From IMG/VR virus record IMGVR_UViG_3300007538_000110, positions 1 through 31,052 of that record: a stretch of DNA of 31,052 nt; one strand, written 5' to 3'. The notes beneath the pieces are model-generated. The model was not told the DNA's origin. It was given only the letters and a program-made list of their open reading frames with translations, and made no database searches. How positions within the stretch are numbered: position 1 is the stretch's first letter; every line of letters begins with the position of its first letter. This document shows positions 2,298 to 30,520 of this stretch, one piece after another. This DNA comes from a virus. The translations under genes and the position numbers were made by a program.

Positions 2298-2678
2298 ATG
2301 GCATACAGCAAAGAGGAAATATTAAAAGAAGCTATATCAGCTATTAAAAGTCACTCACTCTATTTTATAGATGATGTTGTGGCTTTTGTCGCTTGTAGTA
2401 GGTCAACTTTTTATGAGTACTTTCCTGCTGACTCGGATGAATCGGACAACTTAAAAGAATTACTAAATAGAAATAAAGTATCTATGAAAGTAAAACTAAG
2501 AACAAGACTAAGCGAAGGAGACAAAGCAGCGGAGATATTATCATTATACAAGTTGATTGCTACAGATGATGAAAGAAGGGCTTTATCAATGCAGCATGTA
2601 GATCATACAACTAAAGGAGAGAAGATTAACATCATCTCATTAGGATCAGGAACAAAGCCAGATGAAGCTAATAGGTAA
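2298..2678 (+). CDS. Terminase small subunit
   Basis: A 126-residue protein directly before the large terminase and overlapping it by 17 nt. It would recognise the phage DNA and recruit the large subunit for packaging. The N-terminal half (KEEILKEAISAIKSHSLYFIDDVVAFVACSRSTFYEY, about residues 4-41) looks like a helix-turn-helix. The middle is helical and basic, for oligomerisation. The C-terminal part (residues about 103-112, VDHTTKGEKI) is typical of terminase small subunits of this type. It is the first gene after promoter P1 and is predicted to be translated from a leaderless mRNA. The identification rests on position, size and C-terminal pattern. Confidence 0.8.
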   Translation: MAYSKEEILKEAISAIKSHSLYFIDDVVAFVACSRSTFYEYFPADSDESDNLKELLNRNKVSMKVKLRTRLSEGDKAAEILSLYKLIATDDERRALSMQHVDHTTKGEKINIISLGSGTKPDEANR

Positions 2679-3960
2679 ACAAGAAAATGCTGTTTATTAT
2701 CTAAAGGATAACGAAACAAAGGAGTTAATTTATGGAGGAGCAGCAGGTGGCGGTAAATCAGCTTTAGGGGTTCTTTGGCTTATTGAACAATGCCAGACTT
2801 ATGAGGGGTCACGCTGGCTTATGGGTAGGTCTAAATTAAAAGCATTAAAGGAAACAACTTTAAATACGTTCTTTGAACAATCTACAGCCTTAAAAATAAC
2901 AGACCAGTTTACATACAACGGTCAAGCTGGTGTTATTTATTGGAATAATGGAAGTGAAATATTATTGAAGGATTTATACGCATATCCAAGCGATCCAAAC
3001 TTTGATAGTTTAGGGTCATTAGAGATAACAGGGGCGTTTATAGATGAATGTAATCAGATAACGTACAAAGCATGGCAAATTGTTAAATCACGTATTAGAT
3101 ACAAGATAAAGCAGTTTAATATAGAGCCTAAGATGTTAGGAACTTGTAACCCTGCGAAGAATTGGGTTTACGCTCAGTTTTATCTAAAGGATAAAAACAA
3201 GAGTTTAGATAGTGATAAGAAGTTTATACAGGCGTTACCAACTGACAACCCGCATTTACCACAATCTTATTTGGACTCTCTTTTGTCATTAGATGACAAT
3301 AGTAAACAAAGGCTGTATTACGGGAATTGGGAGTATGATAACGACCCCGCAAAGCTAATAGATTACGAAAAGATACAAAATATCTTTACTAACGAATTTA
3401 TCGAAGGCGGTCAAAAGTATATTAGTGCTGATATAGCCCGTTTTGGTAGCGATAAAATGGTTATAATGGTTTGGTCAGGGTTTAGAGTGATTGATATGTT
3501 TACGCTCGGTAAATCGAGTGTTACAGAGACAGCACAAGCGATTAGAGATTTAGCTAATAAACATAGCGTACCATTGTCGAATATTATTGCAGATGAAGAC
3601 GGTGTAGGGGGTGGTGTTGTCGATATACTAAAATGTAAAGGGTTTGTGAATAATTCAAAACCGTTACCAGTAGAAGGTCAAATAGTGCAGTATCAAAACC
3701 TTAAAACACAATGTTATTTTAAGTTAGCCGAAATGATACAAACCGATAGAGTATTTGTTTTATGTAAAGAAAGTACTATTGTCGATGACATTACAAAGGA
3801 ATTAGAGCAGGTTAAAAGAGATAAGATAGATAGTGATGGTAAATTACAATTGCTATCTAAAGAAAAGGTTAAATCATTTATAGGAAGGTCACCCGATTAC
3901 TCAGATGCGTTAATGATGCGTATGTATTTTGAGTTTCAGCAGTCTTTCTTTACATTTTAA
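2662..3960 (+). CDS. Terminase large subunit (packaging ATPase and nuclease)
   Basis: A 432-residue packaging motor protein. The N-terminal ATPase has Walker A GGAAGGGKS (residues 25-33) and Walker B AFIDEC (125-130, with catalytic E129), followed by the coupling motif LGTCNP (159-164). The C-terminal RNase H-like nuclease supplies acidic residues at D257 (SADIARFG), D311/D313 (IIADEDGVGGG) and D415 (PDYSDALMM). The length is normal for the family. It translocates DNA into the prohead through the portal encoded next, and cuts it. Its start overlaps the small-subunit gene, which suggests coupled translation. Confidence 0.96.
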   Translation: MKLIGKQENAVYYLKDNETKELIYGGAAGGGKSALGVLWLIEQCQTYEGSRWLMGRSKLKALKETTLNTFFEQSTALKITDQFTYNGQAGVIYWNNGSEILLKDLYAYPSDPNFDSLGSLEITGAFIDECNQITYKAWQIVKSRIRYKIKQFNIEPKMLGTCNPAKNWVYAQFYLKDKNKSLDSDKKFIQALPTDNPHLPQSYLDSLLSLDDNSKQRLYYGNWEYDNDPAKLIDYEKIQNIFTNEFIEGGQKYISADIARFGSDKMVIMVWSGFRVIDMFTLGKSSVTETAQAIRDLANKHSVPLSNIIADEDGVGGGVVDILKCKGFVNNSKPLPVEGQIVQYQNLKTQCYFKLAEMIQTDRVFVLCKESTIVDDITKELEQVKRDKIDSDGKLQLLSKEKVKSFIGRSPDYSDALMMRMYFEFQQSFFTF

Positions 3961-3977
3961 TATAAACAAACAGTTAA

Positions 3978-5363
3978 ATGGCAAACATTTTTACAAACTT
4001 CTTTTCTGGTGCAAAGGATAAATTAGCAGGGAAGAACGATTTTAATAAGGCATTTTTACAGTTTTTAGGTGGTGGCTATACGTCTTACGATAGCGACATG
4101 AAGACCTACATAGATAAAGGATACAATATAAATCCTGATGTGTACGCTTGTATCTCTCAAATGTCAGTTAAAACAGCTAGTGTACCATATTCTGTTAAAC
4201 GTATTAAAGACAAGAAGTCTCATATAAAGCGTATGCAGCTCAATACAGCCACGAAAGGTAATGCGAGTATCATACAGCAGATTAAAACATTATCGTTGTC
4301 TAATAAGGCTTATGAGTCAGACGATTTAGCCTTTCCAATGGATGAGCCAAACAGTACGCAAACTTGGGTAGAGATTATATCACTTTATAAAACATACATA
4401 AGACTAACTGGAAACTGTTATTTTTATATGTTATCTCCAAAGGATGGAATTAATAGCGGTACACCCGTACAAGTTTACGTTTTACCAGCTCACTTAATGC
4501 AGATAGTAGTTAAGCCAAATGCAGATATGCTAACGGTTGAAAGCCCTATAGATCATTATATGTTAATCGAGGGAAACCAATTTATTAAGTTTGATGCAGA
4601 AGACGTTATACACGTAAAACTATCAAACCCAAACTTTGACTTTCAAGGCTCACACTTATACGGTCAATCACCATTAAGAGCTGCTTTAAGAAACTTAAAC
4701 AGTCAAAACTCAGCTTTAGAACTAAACGTAAAAACACTTCAAAACGGGGGTGCATTTGGATTTATTCACGGTAAAGGAACGGCATTAACGCCAGACCAAG
4801 CGCAAAGCATAAAAGAACGTTTAGTTGAAATGGATAACAGTCCTGAGAAACTAAGTAGAATAGCGGGGGCAAGTGGGGAATTAGCTTTTACACGTATATC
4901 GCTAACTACAGACGAATTAAAACCGTTTGACTTCTTAAAGTACGATCAAAAAGCAATATGTAATGTATTGGGATGGTCTGACAGATTGCTAAACAATAGC
5001 GAAGGAACAGGACTATCTACGGTCGATTTAAACGACATACGTAAGGGCGTTGTAACTGATAATATACTGCCTGATTTGGTGTTGTTACAAGATGCATTTA
5101 ACAAAGAGTTTTTACCAAGATTTAAAGGTTACGAAAACACTTTTATCGAGTGGGATATTACGGAATTGCCAGAAATGCAGGCAGATATGAAGATGATGGT
5201 GGAACAATTGGAGAAAGCGAGAGTAACGCCAAATGAAGTAAGAACTGCATTAAAGTATGAGACTTTAGACGACGATGGTATGGACGTTGTTTGGATGCCT
5301 ACGAACTTGCAACGAATTGACGATGTTAGTGCGGTAATGTTTGATACAGTAAATAAGCAATAG
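3978..5363 (+). CDS. Portal protein (HK97-type)
   Basis: A 461-residue protein following the terminase by 17 nt. It forms the dodecameric ring at one vertex of the head through which DNA passes. Family-typical features include the N-terminal region with VYACISQMSVKTASVPYSV (about residues 55-73), the LTGNCYFYML strand, HVKLSNPNFDF (~206-216), GQSPLRAALRNLN (~224-236), and the C-terminal LGWSDRLLNN motif (~331-340). Length and gene order (terL-portal-head protein-protease-capsid) fit the HK97 plan. Confidence 0.92.
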   Translation: MANIFTNFFSGAKDKLAGKNDFNKAFLQFLGGGYTSYDSDMKTYIDKGYNINPDVYACISQMSVKTASVPYSVKRIKDKKSHIKRMQLNTATKGNASIIQQIKTLSLSNKAYESDDLAFPMDEPNSTQTWVEIISLYKTYIRLTGNCYFYMLSPKDGINSGTPVQVYVLPAHLMQIVVKPNADMLTVESPIDHYMLIEGNQFIKFDAEDVIHVKLSNPNFDFQGSHLYGQSPLRAALRNLNSQNSALELNVKTLQNGGAFGFIHGKGTALTPDQAQSIKERLVEMDNSPEKLSRIAGASGELAFTRISLTTDELKPFDFLKYDQKAICNVLGWSDRLLNNSEGTGLSTVDLNDIRKGVVTDNILPDLVLLQDAFNKEFLPRFKGYENTFIEWDITELPEMQADMKMMVEQLEKARVTPNEVRTALKYETLDDDGMDVVWMPTNLQRIDDVSAVMFDTVNKQ

Positions 5364-5364
5364 T

Positions 5365-5508
5365 ATGAAAAAAATAAATATGCTACTTAAAAATATCAAG
5401 TATTTAATGAATAATGATATTAGTAAAAATAACGCAGTATTTACTATATCTAGTAAAGATCTAGGTGAAATTTATACAAAATCAAGACGCTTTGATGAAC
5501 TGGGATAA
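5365..5508 (+). CDS. Small hypothetical protein between portal and minor head genes
   Basis: A 47-residue frame starting 2 nt after the portal stop and overlapping the start of the next gene. It reads as a short basic N-terminus (KKINMLLKNIKYLMNN) followed by NAVFTISSKDLGEIYTKSRR. The immediate spacing after the portal stop and the lack of another gene in 5364-5464 support it. I know no function. It may help couple translation to the head protein gene that follows. Confidence 0.45.
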   Translation: MKKINMLLKNIKYLMNNDISKNNAVFTISSKDLGEIYTKSRRFDELG

Positions 5509-6253
5509 ACAACAACGAATCTACGAGCGTAAAGCCTATAGGATAATTCAGTCTCACTTAAAAAAGATATTGAACGACTTACCTATTAACAACGTCTCAG
5601 AGACTACGCTTGAATACTTGCTTAACGGTAATATTACAGACGAAAAAGTAAAAGCGATGTTGTTAGAAGTCTATAAAACTATCGGTTTAGATTACGGTAA
5701 TAAAGTCAATTTGACTTTTGAAAGAGTCAAAAAAGATAATATTTTATTTAATGATGGGTTATTAAAAGAAATTTTACTATTTTTGAATAACAAAGGCGGT
5801 GTAAGAATTACATCGATAAGATCGACTTTAATTGACTCTTTAATGCAAGAAGTTCAAGCCGAATTGGCTCGACAAGGTTCATTGATAAGCATAAGGGATG
5901 TTATTTACAACATAGTACGTAAATCGCAATCCTTTTACAAGTGGCAAGCCCTAAGAATCGCACGAACGGAAACCACTTTCGCAAGTAATTTCGCAGCGGT
6001 TAAGGCTTCTGACAATGCAGGGTTTGAAATGGTTAAAACTTGGATAGCTGTAAATGATGATAGAACACGTTTGGACCATGTAATAGAGAATATGCAAACG
6101 GTAGACTCAGATAAACCATTTGTAATGGCAGACGGTACTGAAATGATGTACGCAGGAGATCCAGATGCACCAGCAAGACAAGTTATCAATTGCAGATGTA
6201 CGATAGGATTTGAAGCTAAAAGAGATAGCGAAGGAATGTTAATACTAAAATAA
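5495..6253 (+). CDS. Minor head / head morphogenesis protein (Mu gpF, SPP1 gp7 family)
   Basis: A 252-residue protein from ATG 5495; the same frame is open from a GTG at 5465 (262 residues). ATG is preferred because other starts in the window are almost all ATG. The C-terminal MuF domain is clear: IARTETTFASNFAA, then KTWIAVNDDRTRLDHVIENM, then YAGDPDAPARQVINCRC at the end. Proteins of this family bind the portal and are packaged into the head, where they assist DNA exit or head assembly. The position between portal and protease is the usual one. Confidence 0.85.
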   Translation: MNWDKQQRIYERKAYRIIQSHLKKILNDLPINNVSETTLEYLLNGNITDEKVKAMLLEVYKTIGLDYGNKVNLTFERVKKDNILFNDGLLKEILLFLNNKGGVRITSIRSTLIDSLMQEVQAELARQGSLISIRDVIYNIVRKSQSFYKWQALRIARTETTFASNFAAVKASDNAGFEMVKTWIAVNDDRTRLDHVIENMQTVDSDKPFVMADGTEMMYAGDPDAPARQVINCRCTIGFEAKRDSEGMLILK

Positions 6254-6258
6254 AAGAT

Positions 6259-7083
6259 ATGGATTTTAAGCAGTTGAGTTACGATTTAAAGGAGTTAGAC
6301 GACACTAAGGGTGTTGTTGTAGCTTATGCAAATGCGTACGATTTTAAAGACAGTGATGGCGATATTTCGGCTAAAGGGTCATTTGATAAAACAGTAAATG
6401 AGAACTTTAAACGTATTAGAGTATTGAAAGACCACAACCCAACTATGATGGTAGGCGTTCCTTTAGTTATTAATCCTAAAGACGATTACGGGCTTCTTAC
6501 AACTACTCAATTCAACATGAATAAGCCATTAGGCAAGGATATGTTTACCGATGTGAAATTAATGCATGATAACGGTTTAAATGCTGAGTTAAGTATCGGT
6601 TACCAAGTCATTCAAAGAGACGTAAAGAATAAAAGTATAATTAATGAGTATAAGTTAATGGAATATTCTTTTTTATCTAGTTGGGGAGCGAATGAATTAA
6701 GCACAGTACAAGGCATTAAAGGAATAAAAAGTACATACGGAATATTAGAATTAATTGAGAAGTCATACAATTTAGATTACTCAGACGAAAGATTGAGAGG
6801 TATTGAAACATTATTAAAAATGGCATCGATGGAAATGGATGGAGAAGATAACGACTCTAAATTTATTAACATGATGATACCGCACCATGAGGCAGCAATT
6901 AAAATGGCTAAAAAATATGAAAGTTTACTAAAGAATAACACATTAGTAAAAATGTCTAAAGATATTATAACATCTCAGTCGAAAGAGATTGAAATAATGA
7001 AAGCACTCAATAAAAAGTCGTTAGGAACTAACACTTTGGATGAGCCGCTTATATTTGATTTATTGAAGGGATTTAAAATTTAA
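6259..7083 (+). CDS. HK97-type prohead protease with C-terminal DUF305-like domain
   Basis: A 274-residue protein. Residues 1-165 form the S78-type prohead protease: VVAYANAYDFKDSDGD, the likely catalytic His58 in LKDHNP and Ser112 in LSIGY, then EYSFLS. It would cleave the capsid scaffold domain during head maturation. Residues about 198-250 do not belong to the protease. FINMMIPHHEAAIKMAKKY (202-220) followed by DIITSQSKEIEIMKAL (235-250) has the layout of DUF305, a four-helix domain with an HH motif and Met residues. A 30-residue linker separates the two, and a short tail (DEPLIFDLLKGFKI) follows. The domain could act in assembly or bind metal. The protease call is firm; the DUF305 call is by motif only. 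Confidence 0.88.
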   Translation: MDFKQLSYDLKELDDTKGVVVAYANAYDFKDSDGDISAKGSFDKTVNENFKRIRVLKDHNPTMMVGVPLVINPKDDYGLLTTTQFNMNKPLGKDMFTDVKLMHDNGLNAELSIGYQVIQRDVKNKSIINEYKLMEYSFLSSWGANELSTVQGIKGIKSTYGILELIEKSYNLDYSDERLRGIETLLKMASMEMDGEDNDSKFINMMIPHHEAAIKMAKKYESLLKNNTLVKMSKDIITSQSKEIEIMKALNKKSLGTNTLDEPLIFDLLKGFKI

Positions 7084-7110
7084 TTACAAACAACAACACA
7101 ACAACACACA

Positions 7111-8247
7111 ATGGAAGCATTAGAAATTAAAGCGGCTTTAGAAGGAATTAAAGCACAAGTTGAAACAAAAACAAGTGAAAACGCTGTAGAAGTGAAATCA
7201 CTAATCGAAGCCTTAGAAGGTAAAATGACAGCAGATAAAGACGCTGCTGTATTGGAATTGAAAAACGATCTTAAAGCAATTCAAGACCATGCAGACAAAT
7301 TGGATTTGAAATTACAATCTAAATCTACTCTAGAGAGTAAAGAAGACACTTTAGTAAAGTCTATCACTGAGAATTTCAAAGGAATTAGCGAAGTTCGTAA
7401 AGGAAATGCAGTACAAGTGAAAGCGGTTGGGGATATGGCTTTAACTACTAACTTAACAGGAGCACAACCAAAAGATTATAACTTTGATGTGGTTACAGTA
7501 CCGGGTCAAATGGTGAATGTATCTGATTTAGTAGGATCAGTTGCAATCAGTGGGGGTACTTACACATTTGTAAGAGAATCAGGTGCTGAGGGTTCAATTG
7601 GAGCGCAAACAGAAGGTGGTACTAAACTACAAACAGATTACGACTTTCAAATGGTAGATGTGAACACAGATTTTATTGCTGGTTTCACTCGTTACTCTAA
7701 GAAAATGGCTAACAACTTACCTTTCTTAACTTCATTCATTCCTAACGCTTTACGTAGAGACTACGCAATTGCGGAGAACGCTGCTTTTAACACTGTATTA
7801 GCTGCTGGGGCAACTGCTTCATCTGAGATCGTTACAGGGAAAAATAAAGTAGAAATGTTAATGAATGAGATTGCGAAACAAGAAAATCTTAACTACCCAG
7901 TTAACGGTATTGTTGTTCGTCCTTCTGATTATTGGGATATATTGAAAACTGAGAAGTCTACAGGTGCAGGATACGGCTTGCCTGGTGTAGTAACTCAGGA
8001 CAATGGAGTATTAAGAATCAATGGCATTCCTTTGTATAAAGCGACTTGGTTAGCTGCAAACAAATACTTTGTAGGGGATTGGTCAAGAGTGAACAAAGTA
8101 GTTACTGAGGGTCTTTCTTTAGAGTTCTCAGAAACAGAAGGAACAAACTTTGTTAAGAATAACATCACTGCTAGAATTGAAGCGCAAGTAGCTTTAGCTA
8201 TCGAGCAACCAGCAGCGTTAATCTACGGAGATTTTACAGCTGTCTAA
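7111..8247 (+). CDS. Major capsid protein (HK97 fold)
   Basis: A 378-residue protein. The N-terminal ~105 residues are a charged, helical, coiled-coil delta/scaffold region (MEALEIKAALEGIKAQVETK onwards). The HK97-fold shell domain follows, with recognisable segments VPGQMVNVSDLVG, FTRYSKKMANNLPFLTSF, NAAFNTVLAAG, GIVVRPSDYWDILKTEK and GVLRINGIPLYKATW. The upstream protease would remove the scaffold region. An A/C-rich stretch with CAACAACACA repeats and no Shine-Dalgarno precedes the ATG. The gene is the last of the head operon, directly followed by a strong terminator. Confidence 0.95.
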   Translation: MEALEIKAALEGIKAQVETKTSENAVEVKSLIEALEGKMTADKDAAVLELKNDLKAIQDHADKLDLKLQSKSTLESKEDTLVKSITENFKGISEVRKGNAVQVKAVGDMALTTNLTGAQPKDYNFDVVTVPGQMVNVSDLVGSVAISGGTYTFVRESGAEGSIGAQTEGGTKLQTDYDFQMVDVNTDFIAGFTRYSKKMANNLPFLTSFIPNALRRDYAIAENAAFNTVLAAGATASSEIVTGKNKVEMLMNEIAKQENLNYPVNGIVVRPSDYWDILKTEKSTGAGYGLPGVVTQDNGVLRINGIPLYKATWLAANKYFVGDWSRVNKVVTEGLSLEFSETEGTNFVKNNITARIEAQVALAIEQPAALIYGDFTAV

Positions 8248-23671: not shown

Positions 23672-24205
23672 ATGAAAAATTTAGCAACAGCATTGGTAAA
23701 GGCTCAAAGCGAAATGAGCAACCCGACAAAGGGAAATACAAATCCTTTTTTTAAGTCAAAATACGCTGATTTAAACGCAGTAAGAGAGGCAGTCATTCCT
23801 GTACTAAACGCAAACGGAATAAGTGTATTACAGCCGTTAGTTAACGTTAACGGCAAAAACTTTGTAAACACTATTCTACTGCATGAAAGCGGTGAACTAA
23901 TGGAAAGTTTTACCGAGATAGTTTACAACAAGCAAAACGATGCGCAAGCACAAGGAAGCGGAATTACATACGCAAGGCGTTACGGACTTCAAAGCTTTGT
24001 ATGCGTAGGAGCTGACGACGACGATGGAAATAAAGCCAGCCAACCCGCAAAAATTGATATTTTAAGACTTGAAACGAAATTAAAAGCAGTTTCTACTATT
24101 GGCGAATTGGGAACGGTTTATAAATCCTTCACGATAGACGAGCAAAAAGCCACAAAGGATTTAGCTACTGAACTAAAAGAAAAATTAACCTTAAAAACAG
24201 CGTAA
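23672..24205 (+). CDS. erf: ERF-family single-strand annealing protein
   Basis: A 177-residue recombinase of the ERF family (P22 Erf type), which anneals complementary single strands during phage recombination and genome circularisation. Diagnostic segments are NPFFKSKYADLNAVREAV (about residues 24-41), the strand region SVLQPLV...NTILLHESGELMES, and AQGSGITYARRYGLQSF (91-107), followed by DDDDGNKA. The C-terminal 50 residues are variable. Together with the SSB-like, NinB-like and NinG-like genes downstream it forms a recombination module. Confidence 0.9.
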   Translation: MKNLATALVKAQSEMSNPTKGNTNPFFKSKYADLNAVREAVIPVLNANGISVLQPLVNVNGKNFVNTILLHESGELMESFTEIVYNKQNDAQAQGSGITYARRYGLQSFVCVGADDDDGNKASQPAKIDILRLETKLKAVSTIGELGTVYKSFTIDEQKATKDLATELKEKLTLKTA

Positions 24206-24207
24206 TT

Positions 24208-24426
24208 ATGGGAACAAGTAAAGAAATATTTTGCATAATGCGTGAGGAACAATTTAACGCTATGCAACAACACGAAAGAGAAGCTTTAATATACGTTGAA
24301 TTTAGAGAACAAAACGAGTACGAAAACAACAAAGACGATAAAAATTATTTAACGCTTAAAAAAGCAGAAAAGAAGTCTAAAAACGATTTACAAACATACT
24401 TATTCAATAAAAGAAATAACAATTAA
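24208..24426 (+). CDS. Hypothetical early protein (72 aa)
   Basis: A 72-residue, highly charged helical protein (QFNAMQQHEREALIYVEFRE; KKAEKKSKNDLQTYLF). No recognised domain. It lies between the annealing protein and the SSB-like gene and starts in the TAATTATG context, so it belongs to the same operon. Confidence 0.5.
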   Translation: MGTSKEIFCIMREEQFNAMQQHEREALIYVEFREQNEYENNKDDKNYLTLKKAEKKSKNDLQTYLFNKRNNN

Positions 24427-24439
24427 ATAAATAATCAAA

Positions 24440-24799
24440 ATGGAATTAAAAGGCAAGATTAAAAAAGTTTTAGAAGTACAAAAGGGAACGACTAAAGACG
24501 GTAAAGAATGGCAAAAGTTAAACTTTATAGTTGAAAATAATGATGGGTATGAAGGTAAAGAATCTATCTATTGTTTTGAGATATTCGGAGAAGAAAAAGT
24601 GCAGAATTTCAATAAGTTTAATAAAGTAGGAGACTTGGTAGATGTTAGTTTTAACATATCGACAAATGAATGGAACGATAAGTATTTCACGAGTCTACAA
24701 TCTTGGAAGGTTTTTAAAGCAGAAGGACAAACACCACAGCAAGAAGCACCAGAACCCGCTACAATATCAGAAAACGAAAGTGATGGACTACCATTTTAA
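24440..24799 (+). CDS. Single-stranded DNA-binding protein (DUF3127-like OB fold)
   Basis: A 119-residue OB-fold protein. The first strand reads LKGKIKKVLEVQKGTTKDGKEW, followed by IYCFEIFGEEKV and VGDLVDVSFNISTNEWNDKYFTSLQSW (to about residue 90), a pattern of DUF3127 proteins in Bacteroidetes and their phages. The last residues SENESDGLPF form an acidic tail ending in Pro-Phe, the form of SSB tails that recruit partner proteins. It would coat single strands during replication and Erf-mediated annealing. Confidence 0.8.
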   Translation: MELKGKIKKVLEVQKGTTKDGKEWQKLNFIVENNDGYEGKESIYCFEIFGEEKVQNFNKFNKVGDLVDVSFNISTNEWNDKYFTSLQSWKVFKAEGQTPQQEAPEPATISENESDGLPF

Positions 24800-24809
24800 A
24801 TTTTAAACA

Positions 24810-25247
24810 ATGAAAAAAGTCAAAATAATAACATCAGTAGTTAACGGAAAGTTTACACGCAATAGAACAATAGTATTACAAGCCATTAATTCATTTAATA
24901 ATGCTGATGTTATTTTGACTTTTGATAAACCAAAAAGGAAAAGAAGTAATAGTCAAAACTCTTATTATTGGGGTGTACTTATCCCTTTAATGCAATCAGG
25001 AGCGAAATATCTTTGGGGCGAAGTTTGGAGCATCGACAAGGCGCATAAACACCTATCTAATAAATTTGTATTCCATGAAAGTATAAACGAAAAGACGGGC
25101 GAAATAACGCAAACACCAAAGAGTACAACAGAAAATACAACAACAGAATGGGAGATATACATGACCGAAATTAGAATTTATTTATTAGAAGATTTTGATA
25201 TTAATGCTCCTGAGCCTAACGAAATAACAACAATTAATTTTGAATAA
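24810..25247 (+). CDS. ninB: NinB/Orf-like recombination protein
   Basis: A 145-residue protein with the core of the NinB (lambda Orf) family: KPKRKRSNSQNSYYWGVLIP (about residues 41-60), comparable to the family's RSxxQNxxYW motif, then WSIDKAHKHLSNKFVF and a C-terminal TTEWEIYMTEIRIYLLEDF. In lambda this protein helps annealing proteins load on SSB-coated DNA, which fits its position next to the SSB and Erf genes. The stop overlaps a small frame that looks like a NinG remnant. Confidence 0.75.
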   Translation: MKKVKIITSVVNGKFTRNRTIVLQAINSFNNADVILTFDKPKRKRSNSQNSYYWGVLIPLMQSGAKYLWGEVWSIDKAHKHLSNKFVFHESINEKTGEITQTPKSTTENTTTEWEIYMTEIRIYLLEDFDINAPEPNEITTINFE

Positions 25248-25323
25248 AGCACCCAATCCAAGACGCTGCAAAGTTTGCGAAACCGTATTTATTCCTGCAA
25301 AATTCATGCAACAAATTCTTTAA
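25240..25323 (+). pseudogene. Possible remnant of a NinG-type zinc-knuckle N-terminus
   Basis: A 27-codon frame from TTG 25240 reads NKAPNPRRCKVCETVFIPAK and then stops at 25321-25323. RxCKVCxxxFxP is the usual opening of another branch of NinG proteins (which continues with further cysteines), here cut off. A complete NinG gene lies 750 nt downstream, after a promoter, a structured RNA and an HNH gene. The fragment may be what remained after insertion of that block or replacement of an older ninG. Confidence 0.35.
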
Positions 25324-25340
25324 AATAAAATTAATAACGT

Positions 25341-25372
25341 AGTATATTATATTACAAAATGTCGTATATTTA
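25341..25372 (+). promoter_or_regulatory. Phage-family promoter P5
   Basis: AGTATATTATATTAC (25341-25355), 9 nt, TATATTTA (25365-25372). It reads into the structured RNA 25379-25464 and the HNH/NinG operon. Confidence 0.65.
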
Positions 25373-25378
25373 CTTAGT

Positions 25379-25464
25379 TATTAATTGCGCTAATAACATC
25401 AAAGAAATTAATTTAATCTAAATGTTAGTAGGTGCGCAATACCGAAAGCATTTAGATTTTTTTT
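25379..25464 (+). ncRNA. Structured leader or small RNA 1: pseudoknot on a terminator hairpin
   Basis: Downstream of P5, AATCTAAATG (25415-25424) pairs over 10 bp with CATTTAGATT (25449-25458), followed by six T: an intrinsic terminator ending 3 nt before the HNH start codon. Inside its loop, GGT (25431-25433) and ACC (25441-25443) form a short inner stem, whose apical loop GCGCAAT (25434-25440) is perfectly complementary to ATTGCGC (25384-25390) near the predicted 5' end. The result is an H-type pseudoknot. The same design with other sequences occurs at 27786-27886. It could be a conditional attenuator of the HNH/ninG operon or a free small RNA. The exact 5' end is assumed from the promoter. 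Confidence 0.6.
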
Positions 25465-25467
25465 GTT

Positions 25468-26073
25468 ATGAAAAGTTTAGAAGAAAAAAAGGAATATCAA
25501 CGAAAATGGAGATTAGAAAATAAACAGAAGATATCTGATTATCAAAAAAAATGGAGGTTAGAAAACAATACATATTGTAAAAATTATACCATTGAAAATA
25601 AGATAAAAATAAATGATCGCTCAAAAAAATGGGCTTTAAGTAATAAAGATAAAGTTGCTGAATATTATATTGAAAACAAAGAAAAACTTAGTTTAATGAA
25701 TAAAATATACGCATCAAATAATAAGGAAAAAAGAAATAAACAATCAATAGTAAGAAGAAATAGTGAGCCACTTTATAAATTAACTTGTTACTATAGGAAT
25801 AGAGTTAGTGCGGCAATTACGGCTAAAAGTTGGAAAAAAAATAATAGGCATAAAGAAATACTTTGTTGTGATTATCAAACAATTAAGGAACATTTTGAAA
25901 GTAGATTTACAATAGGAATGAACTGGGGTAATCACGGAGAATGGCATATAGATCACATAATACCTTGCTCAAGCGCAAAAAATGAGTTTGATTTAATTAA
26001 GCTGTTTCATTATGAGAACTTACAGCCTTTATGGGCTAAGGATAATTATATAAAAGGTAAAAGTATTTTGTAA
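25468..26073 (+). CDS. HNH endonuclease, probably a free-standing homing endonuclease
   Basis: A 201-residue protein. The N-terminal ~85 residues consist of short repeated modules around KKWRLEN / KKWALSN (residues 12-18, 27-33, 53-59), likely DNA-contacting. The C-terminal nuclease has EWHIDHIIPCS (158-168; H160, D162, H163), then HYENLQPLWAKDN (181-193) with the Asn residues of the HNH fold. Such genes are selfish insertions in phage genomes. It lies between the NinB and NinG genes, and ends directly before the NinG start (TAA then ATG). It is preceded by its own promoter and terminator-like RNA. Confidence 0.85.
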   Translation: MKSLEEKKEYQRKWRLENKQKISDYQKKWRLENNTYCKNYTIENKIKINDRSKKWALSNKDKVAEYYIENKEKLSLMNKIYASNNKEKRNKQSIVRRNSEPLYKLTCYYRNRVSAAITAKSWKKNNRHKEILCCDYQTIKEHFESRFTIGMNWGNHGEWHIDHIIPCSSAKNEFDLIKLFHYENLQPLWAKDNYIKGKSIL

Positions 26074-26670
26074 ATGATTCAAATAAAAGAAAAGCCATGC
26101 AAAGGAATAGGAAAGGCTTACGGATTTATAGGATGCGGAAATAAAACAATGTATCGTACTTACGGACTTTGTATGAAATGTTACCCTAAATTTTTACAAG
26201 AAGATGAAAGGGGAAAAGTAATAATATACAATGCAATAAATAAAGTACAAAAAACACGTAAAGACTTTGAAAAATTAGGACTTGAAGATAAGGAAAGAAC
26301 AGCATTAAAGAAAGCACATAACACCACCAAAACAGTCGTTCACGCATACGTAAGAGCAAGAGATGAGGGTAAACCTTGTATTAGTTGCAATAACGAATGG
26401 AAGCCAAATTTTCAAGCGGGACACTTTTACGCAGCAGGAAGTTATGAAACTTTAAAATACCATTTACATAATATTTCAGGACAATGTGAGCAATGTAATT
26501 TAAGGAAAGAAGGAAATTTTGCAGGGTACTCTTTGAACTTGCCTAGTAGAATAGGATTAGAAAACTATAATGAATTAGTAAGACTCGCAGGAATTGATAA
26601 ACAGAGGTCTAAAGTTTGGAATTTAGACAATTTAAAAGAAGTTAGAAATAAAATTAAAGAAATAAAATGA
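26074..26670 (+). CDS. ninG: NinG/Rap-like recombination endonuclease
   Basis: A 198-residue protein with two zinc-binding regions. The N-terminal one has C9, C21, C33 and C36 (KPCKGIGKAYG, GLCMKCYPKFL). The second is the NinG core: VVHAYVRARDEGKPCISCNN (88-107), FQAGHFYAAGS (113-123, H117) and GQCEQCNLRKEGN (136-148). In lambda, NinG (Rap) nicks branched DNA and stimulates Red recombination, which matches the Erf, SSB and NinB genes upstream. Family-normal length, apparently intact. Confidence 0.88.
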   Translation: MIQIKEKPCKGIGKAYGFIGCGNKTMYRTYGLCMKCYPKFLQEDERGKVIIYNAINKVQKTRKDFEKLGLEDKERTALKKAHNTTKTVVHAYVRARDEGKPCISCNNEWKPNFQAGHFYAAGSYETLKYHLHNISGQCEQCNLRKEGNFAGYSLNLPSRIGLENYNELVRLAGIDKQRSKVWNLDNLKEVRNKIKEIK

Positions 26671-27008
26671 TACCAAACAACGCAAAAGAAACACACATTA
26701 AACTACTGGCTCAGGTCTTGTTTAATTACATAAATGATTTAAAAGCAGACAACTATTTCACTGGTAAATTTAAAATGTTTGTCAATTCATTTATTAATCA
26801 ATTAGCGGAAGTAGAGAAAAAGAATTTTGATAAAGCATTAGAATTAGAAGAAGAAGCTGCAACGATTACCTATGATGTAATAGATAATTTTTACAAACAA
26901 ATGGCATCCGTTCCTGTTTGGGATATGCAGAACATTGGTCAAATAGTAGAAGCATACTATACGGATCAAAAGAGTATCGAGGGAATCACTAAAAAAATAT
27001 TAAGATAA
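26667..27008 (+). CDS. Hypothetical protein (113 aa)
   Basis: A 113-residue helical protein overlapping NinG by 4 nt (ATGA). It contains HIKLLAQVLFNYINDLKADN, FVNSFINQLAEVEKKNFDKA and the end QIVEAYYTDQKSIEGITKKI. No recognised motif. Translational coupling with NinG and with the HTH gene that follows marks it as part of the middle operon. Confidence 0.55.
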   Translation: MIPNNAKETHIKLLAQVLFNYINDLKADNYFTGKFKMFVNSFINQLAEVEKKNFDKALELEEEAATITYDVIDNFYKQMASVPVWDMQNIGQIVEAYYTDQKSIEGITKKILR

Positions 27009-27217
27009 TGAAATCAACAGTACAAATAGCTCGTGAATGTGGTGCATTACGTGACGAAGTGGATAGAATAGCAGTAAGAGATAATCTAGTCCCTGCTAAA
27101 ATAATAAAGAGAAATAAATTTTACGACAAACACCAAGAGGATTACCTACACAATATTTTATACCTATCGGGAAAAATAACAGAAATAACTTATCAATCAA
27201 AAATTAATATAGCATGA
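27008..27217 (+). CDS. Small helix-turn-helix protein (MerR/excisionase-like)
   Basis: A 69-residue basic protein: STVQIARECGALRDEVDRIA (residues 3-22) reads as the helix-turn-helix of a MerR or excisionase-type domain, followed by VRDNLVPAKIIKRNKFYDKH, the wing, and a helical end. It could bind DNA as a regulator or recombination directionality factor; no integrase is in the window to support the second. It starts in the stop of the previous gene. Confidence 0.5.
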   Translation: MKSTVQIARECGALRDEVDRIAVRDNLVPAKIIKRNKFYDKHQEDYLHNILYLSGKITEITYQSKINIA

Positions 27218-27489
27218 TAAAATACACATTTATAAAGGGTAAACAAGAACCATTAATTTACTCCTTTACGCATGAAATTAGAGAGGAATACAAAAATCTA
27301 AATGCACCTAAAACCGATCCAATAGTTAACAGTGTGATAGAATCATTTAAACAACGTTCTAAGGTAGGTATTGAGAAATACGGAACAACTTTATATGACA
27401 ACAATAATGACGACTATTTACAGCATTTACAAGAGGAATTGATGGATGCAGTTTTATACATAGAAAAATTAAAATCTTTAAGAATATGA
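27214..27489 (+). CDS. MazG-like nucleotide pyrophosphohydrolase-type protein
   Basis: A 91-residue protein whose second half carries a MazG-like pattern: KQRSKVGIEKYGTTLYDNNN (about 47-66) followed by DYLQHLQEELMDAVLYIEKL (67-86) with the ExxxD metal-binding helix (E75, D79). Small phage proteins of this type may hydrolyse (d)NTPs or alarmones. The domain is shorter than full MazG enzymes, so activity is uncertain. Confidence 0.6.
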   Translation: MIKYTFIKGKQEPLIYSFTHEIREEYKNLNAPKTDPIVNSVIESFKQRSKVGIEKYGTTLYDNNNDDYLQHLQEELMDAVLYIEKLKSLRI

Positions 27490-27614
27490 GCGAATAAGAA
27501 AAAGACATCGAGAAAATTAAAGCGTTTGTAAATGGTAAATTTAAAAATCCAGATGCTGAACAATTAATTATAAACTTCATAACAATAATGAATAATGGCG
27601 AAAAGAAACAATAA
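27486..27614 (+). pseudogene. Small gene with an in-frame TAA at codon 4
   Basis: An ATG overlapping the previous stop (ATGA) begins MSE, then TAA (27495-27497). The same frame continues EKDIEKIKAFVNGKFKNPDA, then a hydrophobic helix, to TAA at 27612-27614. The reading-through product would have about 42 residues and looks protein-like. A single C-to-T change (CAA to TAA) would explain the stop. No ATG allows a restart before the last codons. Either a recent loss or not a gene. Confidence 0.35.
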
Positions 27615-27729
27615 TACACAGTTGAAAATTCTTTTAAAGTGGCGTGATAGATTAAGAGGGAGGGGATTGAATAACGAAAATGTAAACGATAGAATCAGGT
27701 ATTTACAAAATCTAATTTTTAACTATTGA
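27595..27729 (+). CDS. Small basic protein (44 aa)
   Basis: A 44-residue Arg/Lys/Asn-rich protein (AKRNNNTQLKILLKWRDRLR, then NENVNDRIRYLQNLIFNY) overlapping the end of the previous broken frame by 20 nt. Basic and helical, possibly nucleic-acid binding. It is the last gene before promoter P6. Confidence 0.45.
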   Translation: MAKRNNNTQLKILLKWRDRLRGRGLNNENVNDRIRYLQNLIFNY

Positions 27730-27748
27730 AAAAATAATTTAGTTTTTT

Positions 27749-27780
27749 AGTACATTGTATTAAAAAAAGTATTATATTTG
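27749..27780 (+). promoter_or_regulatory. Phage-family promoter P6 (replication operon)
   Basis: AGTACATTGTATTAA (27749-27763), 9 nt, TATATTTG (27773-27780). It reads into the structured RNA at 27786-27886 and the replication genes. Confidence 0.7.
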
Positions 27781-27785
27781 TACTT

Positions 27786-27886
27786 GTAATTTAGTGAGAT
27801 TTATTACAGCAAATGAAAACATTATAAGAATCCGATAAGGAAAGCGAAATCTCACACAACGCTGACTTTATCGGATTTCATTTTTT
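27786..27886 (+). ncRNA. Structured leader or small RNA 2: pseudoknot on a terminator hairpin
   Basis: AATCCGATAA (27829-27838) pairs over 10 bp with TTATCGGATT (27868-27877), followed by TCA and six T (27881-27886). Within the loop AGCG (27843-27846) pairs with CGCT (27860-27863), and the apical loop holds AAATCTCAC (27847-27855), the perfect 9-nt complement of GTGAGATTT (27794-27802) near the predicted 5' end. This gives an H-type pseudoknot with the same layout as 25379-25464. A four-codon frame (ATG AAA ACA TTA TAA, 27813-27827) ends one base before the terminator stem. The first gene of the replication operon starts 38 nt after the T-run. No gene lies in 27730-27924. Confidence 0.65.
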
Positions 27887-27924: not shown

Positions 27925-28146
27925 ATGGCAAATGTCAAATTAGTATTTTCAGGATCAGAAACAAGCAGAACAGAAGAACATACACTTGTTTGTTATCACA
28001 ACACGCAAAATAATATTTTCATAGAAATTGAAACTTCTTATCAGGAATCGTCTTATATCTGTTTAGATCGTGCAACAGCAATTAAACTTCATAGAGAATT
28101 AAAAAAACAAATCTCTTTTATAGAAAGTGAGGTAACAAATGGCTAA
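27925..28146 (+). CDS. Hypothetical protein (73 aa), first of the replication operon
   Basis: A 73-residue protein, probably beta-strands followed by one helix: NVKLVFSGSETSRTEEHTLV, NNIFIEIETSYQESSYICLD and ATAIKLHRELKKQISFIESE. It overlaps the initiator gene by 8 nt, so both are likely translated together. Unrecognised. Confidence 0.6.
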   Translation: MANVKLVFSGSETSRTEEHTLVCYHNTQNNIFIEIETSYQESSYICLDRATAIKLHRELKKQISFIESEVTNG

Positions 28147-28867
28147 GGAGTTACCATATTTCAAATTCGAACCTAATCAATGGGAAAACGGAAACGTGCA
28201 AATGTGTTCCAGAGAAGATAAAGGCTTATTTATAGACTTGTGTTCTATGTATTGGTCAAGGCTTGGAGATCTGCCTTTAAAATTAGCTATACAAAAGTTA
28301 TGCGCTGGCAATGCGACCGCATTAAATTCGCTTTGTGAGGATAAAATTATCGTACTAGAAAATGGATTTATACGCATTGATTTCCTTGAAGAGCAGTTAT
28401 CTGAATTTGATAATACTAGCAAACAGAACAGTAAAAACGCTAAAGAGAGATGGGAAAAGTACCGTAAACAAAAGGATGAATGCGAGCGCAATGCGACCGC
28501 ATTAAATTCGCAATGCGAAAACGATGCCATAAGAGAAGATAAGATAAGAGAAGATAAGATAATAACTAATACTATAGAAGCTCGAAAATTAAAATTTTCT
28601 CAATCCCTAATCCCTTTTTTAGATTTATACGATAAGGAAATGATAAGGGACTTTTGCAACTACTGGACTGAACCTAATAAATCAAATACAAAGTTTAAAC
28701 AGGAAACAGAAAAAACTTGGTCTTTAGCAAATAGGCTCGAAAGATGGAGTAGAAACAATTTTGGAACTACTAAAAAAACGAAAGATGAAAATTTTGATAA
28801 ACTACTTGAATTAACAAAAGCGGTTAGGGATAAACAATACTTAGAAAGCTTAAATACAAATCAATAA
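28139..28867 (+). CDS. Phage replication initiator / replisome organizer-like protein
   Basis: A 242-residue protein. The N-terminal ~90 residues (LPYFKFEPNQWENGNVQMCS, REDKGLFIDLCSMYWSRLGD, FIRIDFLEEQLSEF) match the winged-helix domain of phage replication proteins of the DUF1376/DnaD-like group. A charged linker follows (KERWEKYRKQKDE, then REDKIREDKI), and a C-terminal part with FCNYWTEPNKSNTKFKQE and LANRLERWSRNNF typical of these proteins. The gene contains an exact 24-nt repeat encoding NATALNS twice and a 15-bp tandem repeat encoding REDKI twice. Helicase-related genes downstream fit a role in origin recognition. Confidence 0.8.
   Translation: MAKELPYFKFEPNQWENGNVQMCSREDKGLFIDLCSMYWSRLGDLPLKLAIQKLCAGNATALNSLCEDKIIVLENGFIRIDFLEEQLSEFDNTSKQNSKNAKERWEKYRKQKDECERNATALNSQCENDAIREDKIREDKIITNTIEARKLKFSQSLIPFLDLYDKEMIRDFCNYWTEPNKSNTKFKQETEKTWSLANRLERWSRNNFGTTKKTKDENFDKLLELTKAVRDKQYLESLNTNQ
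28299..28331 (+). repeat. Iteron-like repeat, first copy, inside the initiator gene
   Basis: TATGCG (28299-28304) and AATGCG (28310-28315) start 11 bp apart. The latter is part of the palindrome AATGCG-AC-CGCATT (28310-28323), embedded in a 24-nt unit (28308-28331) repeated exactly at 28488-28511, 180 bp downstream and in the same reading frame. Confidence 0.6.
28479..28517 (+). repeat. Iteron-like repeat cluster, second copy, possible replication origin
   Basis: AATGCG occurs at 28479, 28490 and 28512, spaced by 11 and 22 bp (one and two helical turns), with the inverted CGCATT at 28498. It includes the exact 24-nt copy 28488-28511. Repeats on one face of the helix inside an initiator gene recall the lambda origin within gene O. 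Confidence 0.6.
28531..28560 (+). repeat. Purine-rich 15-bp tandem repeat next to the iteron cluster
   Basis: AAGAGAAGATAAGAT occurs twice without a gap (28531-28545, 28546-28560), followed by AATAACTAATACTATAG. It is AT-rich with strong strand asymmetry, as in regions that melt at phage origins. It encodes REDKIREDKI. Confidence 0.6.
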
Positions 28868-29157: not shown

Positions 29158-29642
29158 GTTGGATAGAAGAAAATGCACTAAAAAGAGTCTTTAACGTTTA
29201 TAAGCGTTTTAAGGAACAAAAAGGCAAGCTATGGGATAATGACATAGAAGCTATTAAAACGTTAAGCACAGCCCTTGAAAATAACTCTAAACACTATGTT
29301 AACGATAATTTACTCTTTGCAAAACTATTATGTTACTGTTTAGATAAAAATCTACACTTAAACGGAGATATGAAAGCAGCTATTAAAAACGTGGCTGATG
29401 TGTTAAAAGAGCCTTTAAACGAAAGAATTGCAATGTTAACAATGAACCTAAATAATCAAGAATTAAACAACTATTTTAAAAGTTTAGGGTTAAATATAGA
29501 ACATGAAAAGAAAAGCGATTTAAAGAAAGTTACACCCGAAATGGTAACTAAGATAAAAAGCAATTGGACGAGTGAAACTGTTACAAAATCATTCTACAAC
29601 ACAGCAAACGACTTATTAAAAGACATTAATAACTATAACTAA
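29154..29642 (+). CDS. Hypothetical replication-operon protein (162 aa)
   Basis: A 162-residue helical protein (NALKRVFNVYKRFKEQKGKL, IEAIKTLSTALENNSKHYVN, LLFAKLLCYCLDKNLHLNGD). No catalytic motif is visible. It starts in the stop of the preceding gene and its own stop overlaps the ATG of the RepA-like ATPase (TAATG). This coupling suggests that it is a helicase loader or partner, but only by context. Confidence 0.6.
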   Translation: MSWIEENALKRVFNVYKRFKEQKGKLWDNDIEAIKTLSTALENNSKHYVNDNLLFAKLLCYCLDKNLHLNGDMKAAIKNVADVLKEPLNERIAMLTMNLNNQELNNYFKSLGLNIEHEKKSDLKKVTPEMVTKIKSNWTSETVTKSFYNTANDLLKDINNYN

Positions 29643-30520
29643 TGAACTTCGACGAATTAAAACAAGAATTAGATACAAGTATAGTTACGGTTGACTATAG
29701 TAAAATGTTTATTGAATCGTACATTGATCCAAGCGAGGAGGTAATACATCAGCCTGTAGCTTTATCAATAGGTTATTCAAATTATAAAGGTACTAATTAC
29801 CCTATCCCTTTTGGCTCATACGGTGACTTTTCATGTATCGTTGGAGCTTCTAAATCACGCAAGACTTTTTTTAAATCAATGATTGAAGCGTCTTATCTAG
29901 GAGGTAATGCAAATCAATTTTGCCCGAGTTTTAAGGGGCACGATAAGCGTGATAAGTTAGTAATATCATTTGATACCGAGCAAAGTAGATTTCATACGCA
30001 AAGGGTACAGCGTCGAGTAATGGAGATGGTAGGTGGTGATACCTATGACACTTATAAGACATTTAGACTTAGAGCCTACGAACCAAAAGAGCGTTTACAA
30101 TTCATTGACTATATCATAAATGAAAGCGATTATAAAGGGCGTATAGGCTTACTTTCAATCGATGGATTTGTAGACTTGGTAACAGACTTTAATAGCTTAG
30201 AACAATCTACAAATTTAACCGAAAAGCTATTGCAGTGGACCGCAACAGGTAACATGCATATAACGGGAATCCTGCATAAAAACTTTGGAACTTCTAAACC
30301 TGTAGGTCACGTTGGATCTAGTGTGCTTAAAAAAGCTGAGACAGTTGTTTTTATAGAAAAAGAGGACAACACCAGTATTGCAAAATGCGAGTATAGCCGT
30401 AACATGCCATTTGACGACATTCATTTTGATGTAAATAGTGACTGGCTGCCTTACGAAATCGATACCAGCGTAGGGGATAGGCTGCCAAGAAATCAAACGG
30501 TTTCAAATCCTAAATTTTAA
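29642..30520 (+). CDS. RepA-type RecA-fold ATPase / replicative helicase
   Basis: A 292-residue ATPase of the RepA/AAA_25 group. Walker A is VGASKSRKTFFKS (residues 67-79), with Arg73 where most P-loops have Gly. Later blocks are LVISFDTEQSRFHTQRVQRR (106-125), Walker B IGLLSIDGFVDLV (168-180), and MHITGILHKNF (205-215) with a His like the sensor of hexameric RepA helicases. The protein would unwind DNA at the phage origin as a hexamer. It lacks a DnaB N-terminal domain. It closes the replication operon. Confidence 0.85.
   Translation: MNFDELKQELDTSIVTVDYSKMFIESYIDPSEEVIHQPVALSIGYSNYKGTNYPIPFGSYGDFSCIVGASKSRKTFFKSMIEASYLGGNANQFCPSFKGHDKRDKLVISFDTEQSRFHTQRVQRRVMEMVGGDTYDTYKTFRLRAYEPKERLQFIDYIINESDYKGRIGLLSIDGFVDLVTDFNSLEQSTNLTEKLLQWTATGNMHITGILHKNFGTSKPVGHVGSSVLKKAETVVFIEKEDNTSIAKCEYSRNMPFDDIHFDVNSDWLPYEIDTSVGDRLPRNQTVSNPKF

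Follow-up and report, generated by a model that had tools for sequence, protein, structure and literature searches.

Kissing-loop terminator RNAs in front of replication and endonuclease genes of Flavobacteriia phages: a candidate family of leader attenuators

Leader and attenuator RNAs are a known kind of phage regulator, and several described systems come close to the RNAs reported here. The put RNA of phage HK022 is a cis-acting antiterminator that contacts RNA polymerase and has no terminator of its own. By description it resembles our RNAs in lying just 3' of a promoter, in its two hairpins and in acting on its own transcript, but here the second hairpin is a terminator, whose loop kisses the first hairpin. 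Purine, cobalamin and guanidine-II riboswitches likewise combine loop-loop contacts with terminators in 5' leaders; unlike them, the present RNAs have no conserved ligand-pocket sequence and no exclusive antiterminator, and their kissing sequence is fully variable. Attenuators of the pT181 type and the antisense control of pMV158 share the replication-initiator leader, the terminator and a loop-loop contact, whereas the contact here is internal and a promoter for an antisense RNA was not detected. Phages are also listed as carrying c4 antisense RNA (PMC2864571). The c4 leader and immunity RNAs of phages P4 and P1 are similar in being short and in combining leader termination with the pairing of loops; they act in trans on another transcript, while the pairing here is within one RNA that has no Rfam match.

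No covariance model of Rfam 15 matched our window at its gathering score, and permissive E-values gave only unrelated weak matches. The open-access literature searched, outside which most subscription papers lie, does not describe the family, and we found no named counterpart for a 5' hairpin that kisses the loop of its own terminator. An earlier note on this DNA, made from the sequence alone, had known of no class with this layout, and Rfam 15 and the literature searched agree. As far as these tools tell, the family appears undescribed, although its general kind is known.

The window, the whole 31,052-nt stretch of viral DNA analysed, is from a tailed phage, with terminase, portal and major head protein genes (2662–8247) and an ERF-NinB-NinG recombination block (23672–26670). 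RNA1, RNA2 and the genes directly behind them lie on its plus strand. RNA1 lies behind a −7-like promoter box of the TAnnTTTG family (TATATTTA, 25365–25372). Its 5' hairpin P1 (25377–25397), read from the sequence and recovered by an independent script, pairs GTTATTA (25377–25383) with TAATAAC (25391–25397), and the loop between them is the kissing strand K, ATTGCGC (25384–25390). A linker (atcaaagaaattaattt, 25398–25414) bearing a conserved AARAHATTW motif leads to the terminator hairpin (25415–25458), followed by a T-run onward to 25464. The terminator stem had been put at 10 bp; that pairing is in place, but as the outer part of a 12-bp stem (25415–25426/25447–25458). Within it come an AGTA/GAA internal loop (25427–25430/25444–25446), a GGT/ACC inner stem (25431–25433/25441–25443) and the apical kissing loop K', GCGCAAT (25434–25440), the complement of K. 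The start codon of an HNH / endonuclease VII-like gene (25468–26073; phrog_1035) is about 10 nt 3' of the terminator stem, and ninG (26074–26670; NinG, Pfam PF05766) is next.

RNA2 follows a −7 box at 27773–27780 (TATATTTG). Its P1 (27784–27809) pairs TGTAAT (27785–27790) with ATTACA (27803–27808), and the loop consists of tta plus the kissing strand K (GTGAGATTT, 27794–27802). The linker (caaatgaaaacattataa, 27810–27827) again bears the AARAHATTW motif. In the terminator hairpin (27828–27878, T-run to 27886), the stem described earlier at 27829–27838/27868–27877 is present and extends to 13 pairs (27828–27840/27866–27878); it encloses an AGCG/CGCT inner stem (27843–27846/27860–27863) and the apical loop K' (AAATCTCAC, 27847–27855), which pairs with GTGAGATTT. 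Behind RNA2 (27925–28867) are genes for a small 73-aa protein and a primosomal-protein-like replication protein (28139–28867; phrog_9327 primosomal protein, E 1.9e-8), an order kept in many relatives.

Every pairing that the earlier note claimed for the two RNAs was found at its position, in the raw sequence and by the independent script. The note had called the fold a terminator pseudoknot. Pairing of the apical loop with a 5' strand holds, but a simple strand-loop pseudoknot does not: the 5' strand of each RNA forms the loop of its own hairpin, so the contact is a hairpin-hairpin kissing loop. The full layout begins with a TAnnTTTG-type box, about 5 nt, P1 with K in its loop and a linker of 13–20 nt; it continues with the terminator 5' arm, a purine-rich internal loop, the inner stem around K', the 3' arm, the T-run and a start codon. 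A script for this layout, run on both strands, returned RNA1 and RNA2 as the two top-scoring matches in the window, and when the promoter box was required they alone scored at least 26. Chance is excluded as the source of their shared fold.

We searched 245 loci, 1.89 Mb of related phage DNA, assembled from loci with genes related to the replication gene or to an HNH gene behind such RNAs, plus whole genomes of isolated phages. A full-layout descriptor (score at least 28, promoter box required, coding strand) found 124 distinct RNAs, against 1 on the opposite strand, 3 in reversed and 1 in complemented sequence of the same 1.89 Mb. A DNA pattern scan gave mostly chance matches, yet added true copies, such as two in locus L338. 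Because the descriptor itself uses the kissing pairing, we also ran an unbiased test, in which candidates were selected on box, 5' hairpin and terminator alone. Perfect loop-loop complementarity of at least 6 bp was present in 108 of 110 distinct candidates (98%), compared with 9.2% when loops were taken from different RNAs and 10.9% when one loop was reversed. The 108 kissing RNAs have 65 different kissing sequences, and several phages hold 2–5 copies, each with a distinct one.

Compensatory change was measured over the whole structure in 18 aligned orthologues upstream of the replication gene. These had been chosen by the full-layout descriptor, so the unbiased 108/110 result remains the main evidence. 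Standard pairs filled 99.0% of cells (86.9% in shuffled alignments), changes on both sides occurred at 15 pairs (6.7), doubly changed cells numbered 57 (15), and the covariation score was 0.401 (0.166); the signal was lost when the partner was shifted by 1–3 columns. In the kissing helix, 143 of 144 cells were standard pairs with no G-U, and double compensatory changes were seen at 6 of 8 pairs and one-side-only changes at none, which implies that G-U intermediates are not tolerated there. Multi-base compensation is seen between loci such as L034 and L038, with CATGCAC against CTTCGAC at 87% identity overall. Homologues without compensatory changes in the loop-5' strand pairing would, according to the earlier note, have told against a selected structure; the doubly changed pairs in these orthologues, together with the unbiased test, instead bear out a common structure maintained by selection.

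The kissing strands change at a rate of 0.096, compared with 0.13 in the stems. Diversifying selection on them was ruled out, since the rate is not above that of the stems; constrained drift is the better description. Orthogonality of kissing sequences within a genome was only a trend: none of 104 cross pairs between copies reached 7 bp where about 3% was expected, which is not significant.

Although the search did not require a T-run, six or more T in 8 nt were present in 84 of 101 RNAs (background 7%); the T-tracts of the remainder are interrupted. The T-run therefore belongs to the family and was not introduced by the search, and the terminators proposed earlier can be taken as genuine intrinsic terminators, with hairpin and U-tract. 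Median energies are −17.7 kcal/mol for the terminator hairpin and −10.1 kcal/mol for the K:K' duplex. The single-stranded linker motif, AARAHAUUW, ends 1–3 nt 5' of the terminator in most RNAs. As a regular expression it matched 84 of 121 RNAs (69%) but 5 of 186 other terminator-like hairpins (2.7%), and 5.4% of windows behind other TAnnTTTG boxes. In six loci the linker is longer (∼24–35 nt), with an apparent extra small hairpin 3' of the motif (L081 37493, L126 3669, L073 3874, L010 4174, L019 4658 and L137 2512).

Where the terminator stem meets the inner stem, many RNAs have an internal loop from a small set of purine-rich types: AGUA/GAA (that of RNA1), UGAN/UGA, UGAA/GGA, GGAA/UGA and GGA/AAA; in 35 of 121 RNAs the loop belongs to none of these classes. 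AGUA/GAA may be a bulged-G motif, and the GA types may form sheared pairs. That so few classes recur suggests a conserved non-Watson-Crick module, one class of which can replace another. A rod geometry, in which a longer linker would go with a taller hairpin, was unsupported; the correlation was negative, and biased by boundary assignment.

The earlier note had considered that transcription may be switched. For a classical attenuator or riboswitch of mutually exclusive pairing we looked for alternative partners of either terminator arm, and the longest matches equalled those in shuffled sequence (4.07 versus 4.05 and 4.23 versus 4.21). Neither arm has a conserved antiterminator partner, so that type of switch is not supported.

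The survey bore out the earlier proposal that the RNAs share one promoter family: the TAnnTTTG box, the −7 box of Bacteroidetes promoters, most often lies 5 nt before the 5' hairpin, and 3–7 nt before it in 105 of 130 RNAs, which places the expected transcript start at the base of P1. Downstream, 128 of 130 distinct RNAs are followed by an ORF of at least 40 aa, whose start lies 5–69 nt (median 18.5) 3' of the stem. Promoter, terminator and start codon thus stand in the order of a leader attenuator, and since the gap is too short for a second promoter, the genes are presumably transcribed through the terminator. Reverse-oriented CAAAnnTA boxes were not enriched (17 in 130 RNAs, 24 in controls), and a plasmid-type leader under antisense control was rejected for want of such enrichment.

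The replication and HNH genes noted behind the two RNAs hold up as phrog_9327 (RNA2) and phrog_1035 (RNA1), with similar genes in relatives. Unrelated phages have the RNA in the same place before differing replication initiators: beside phrog_9327 of the window these are phrog_428 in F. columnare phage FCL-2 and a DnaD-like loader (phrog_2514) in L073. Tenacibaculum phage Gundel_1 has a primosomal/O-like protein (phrog_6451) in this position, and phages 11b and Harreka_1 have DUF6291 proteins. Other genes behind the RNAs encode NUMOD4-HNH and GIY-YIG endonucleases, a DNA methyltransferase, a pentapeptide protein and DUF6378. Gene counts are biased towards the bait genes; the cases of FCL-2, 11b, Harreka_1, Gundel_1, L277 and L338 are independent of bait. 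At the strict threshold, a copy was present within the 480 nt upstream of the replication gene in 55 of 97 distinct regions, and within the 300 nt upstream of the HNH gene in 22 of 75 distinct regions. The ∼40% of replication-gene regions that gave no match within 480 nt at this threshold reflect partly a detection limit and partly true absence, and they imply that the RNA is not indispensable.

Copies occur in Lillamyvirus (morran, hemulen), Muminvirus, Olleya phage Harreka_1, Cellulophaga phage phi10:1, Flavobacterium phage 11b, FCL-2 and Tenacibaculum phage Gundel_1, so the hosts of isolated phages with copies are Flavobacterium, Olleya, Cellulophaga and Tenacibaculum. No convincing copy was found in Cellulophaga phage phi38:1, in the first 50 kb of crAss001 or in Bacteroides phage B124-14, and ∼0.3 Mb of Bacteroidia host chromosome gave no match save on one phage-like contig (L248). 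The replication protein is rare among host genomes (3 of 395).

The reading we favour, and consider somewhat probable, is that these are 5'-terminal phage leader RNAs of ∼90–100 nt acting in cis as attenuators. It builds on what can be read directly from the DNA: the covarying fold, the terminator, the spacing from the promoter and the constant place before start codons. Transcription would start at the base of the 5' hairpin, whose loop would kiss the apical loop of the second hairpin while the 3' arm of the terminator is still to be made. That arm would then close an intrinsic terminator directly 5' of the start codon; kissing would aid closure, probably by speeding the folding of the hairpin, and may help in its recognition. 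By default, transcription would yield a short terminated RNA whose two ends are sealed, and the replication initiator, endonuclease or other DNA-metabolism gene would be expressed only on read-through. Read-through would be most likely when a putative phage or host factor recognises the AARAHAUUW linker and the folded kissing complex; alternatively, RNA polymerase itself may use linker and fold for timely read-through. Kissing would influence read-through.

Any small-RNA gene in a dense phage genome would also closely precede a gene, so position in cis is by itself compatible with the strongest rival. In this view the terminated RNA is made for its own sake, as a stable small RNA of the phage that acts in trans, hairpin-sealed and kissing-closed; its linker and internal loop would bind a protein of host or phage, and the downstream genes would be expressed by leaky read-through. 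A promoter-defined start, a strong terminator end, the conserved single-stranded linker, purine-rich internal loops such as AGUA/GAA, multiple copies per phage and the lack of alternative pairing would all fit. We nevertheless think this unlikely, because in 128 of 130 cases a start codon follows the RNA directly, the genes concerned are repeatedly of a single functional type, and no copy was seen placed independently. Still less probable is a passive insulator and 5' leader, whose hairpin would halt transcription from the upstream operon and whose folded 5' end would shield a leaky read-through mRNA, without switching. The RNAs do lie between consecutive same-strand genes, and the 5' hairpin begins almost at the transcript start; an insulator, however, is expected upstream of the promoter and not downstream, and a plain terminator and hairpin would suffice for it, leaving the wobble-free kissing helix and the linker motif superfluous.

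Least credible, and in our estimate very improbable, is self-sensing or incompatibility, in which terminated RNAs would act in trans on nascent K or K' of the same sequence and so gauge phage copy number, as in plasmid antisense control. Replication genes are a main target, and copies within a genome never share a kissing sequence (0 of 104 cross pairs at 7 bp). That deficit is not significant against ∼3% expected, however; the kissing strands (0.096, stems 0.13) give no sign of diversifying selection, and antisense promoters are not enriched.

Returning to attenuation in cis, the leaders may represent a new transcription control of Flavobacteriia phages, a proposal that we hold tentatively: kissing loop and AARAHAUUW linker, read by RNA polymerase or a factor, would set read-through into replication and homing-endonuclease genes, the module being reused with a different kissing sequence for each operon. 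Since phages from at least four host genera have the RNA ahead of their replication initiator, it may control the timing of DNA replication. With more than 120 distinct examples, the family offers a test case for how tertiary contacts alter intrinsic termination, in a large and poorly understood group of phages whose host phylum has been little studied for transcription attenuation.

Free-standing HNH and GIY-YIG genes often have their own promoter and kissing-terminator cassette, as at 25468–26073 in the window, L016:3348–3833, L006:410–1183 and L338:3605 (minus-strand coordinates), as if mobile endonuclease genes took the leader along or acquired it anew. In the replication operon of the window, a 292-aa protein (29642–30520) that has no Pfam or PHROG match at 0.001 contains a Walker A-like stretch, GASKSRKTFF, and is possibly a divergent RepA/RecA-like ATPase.
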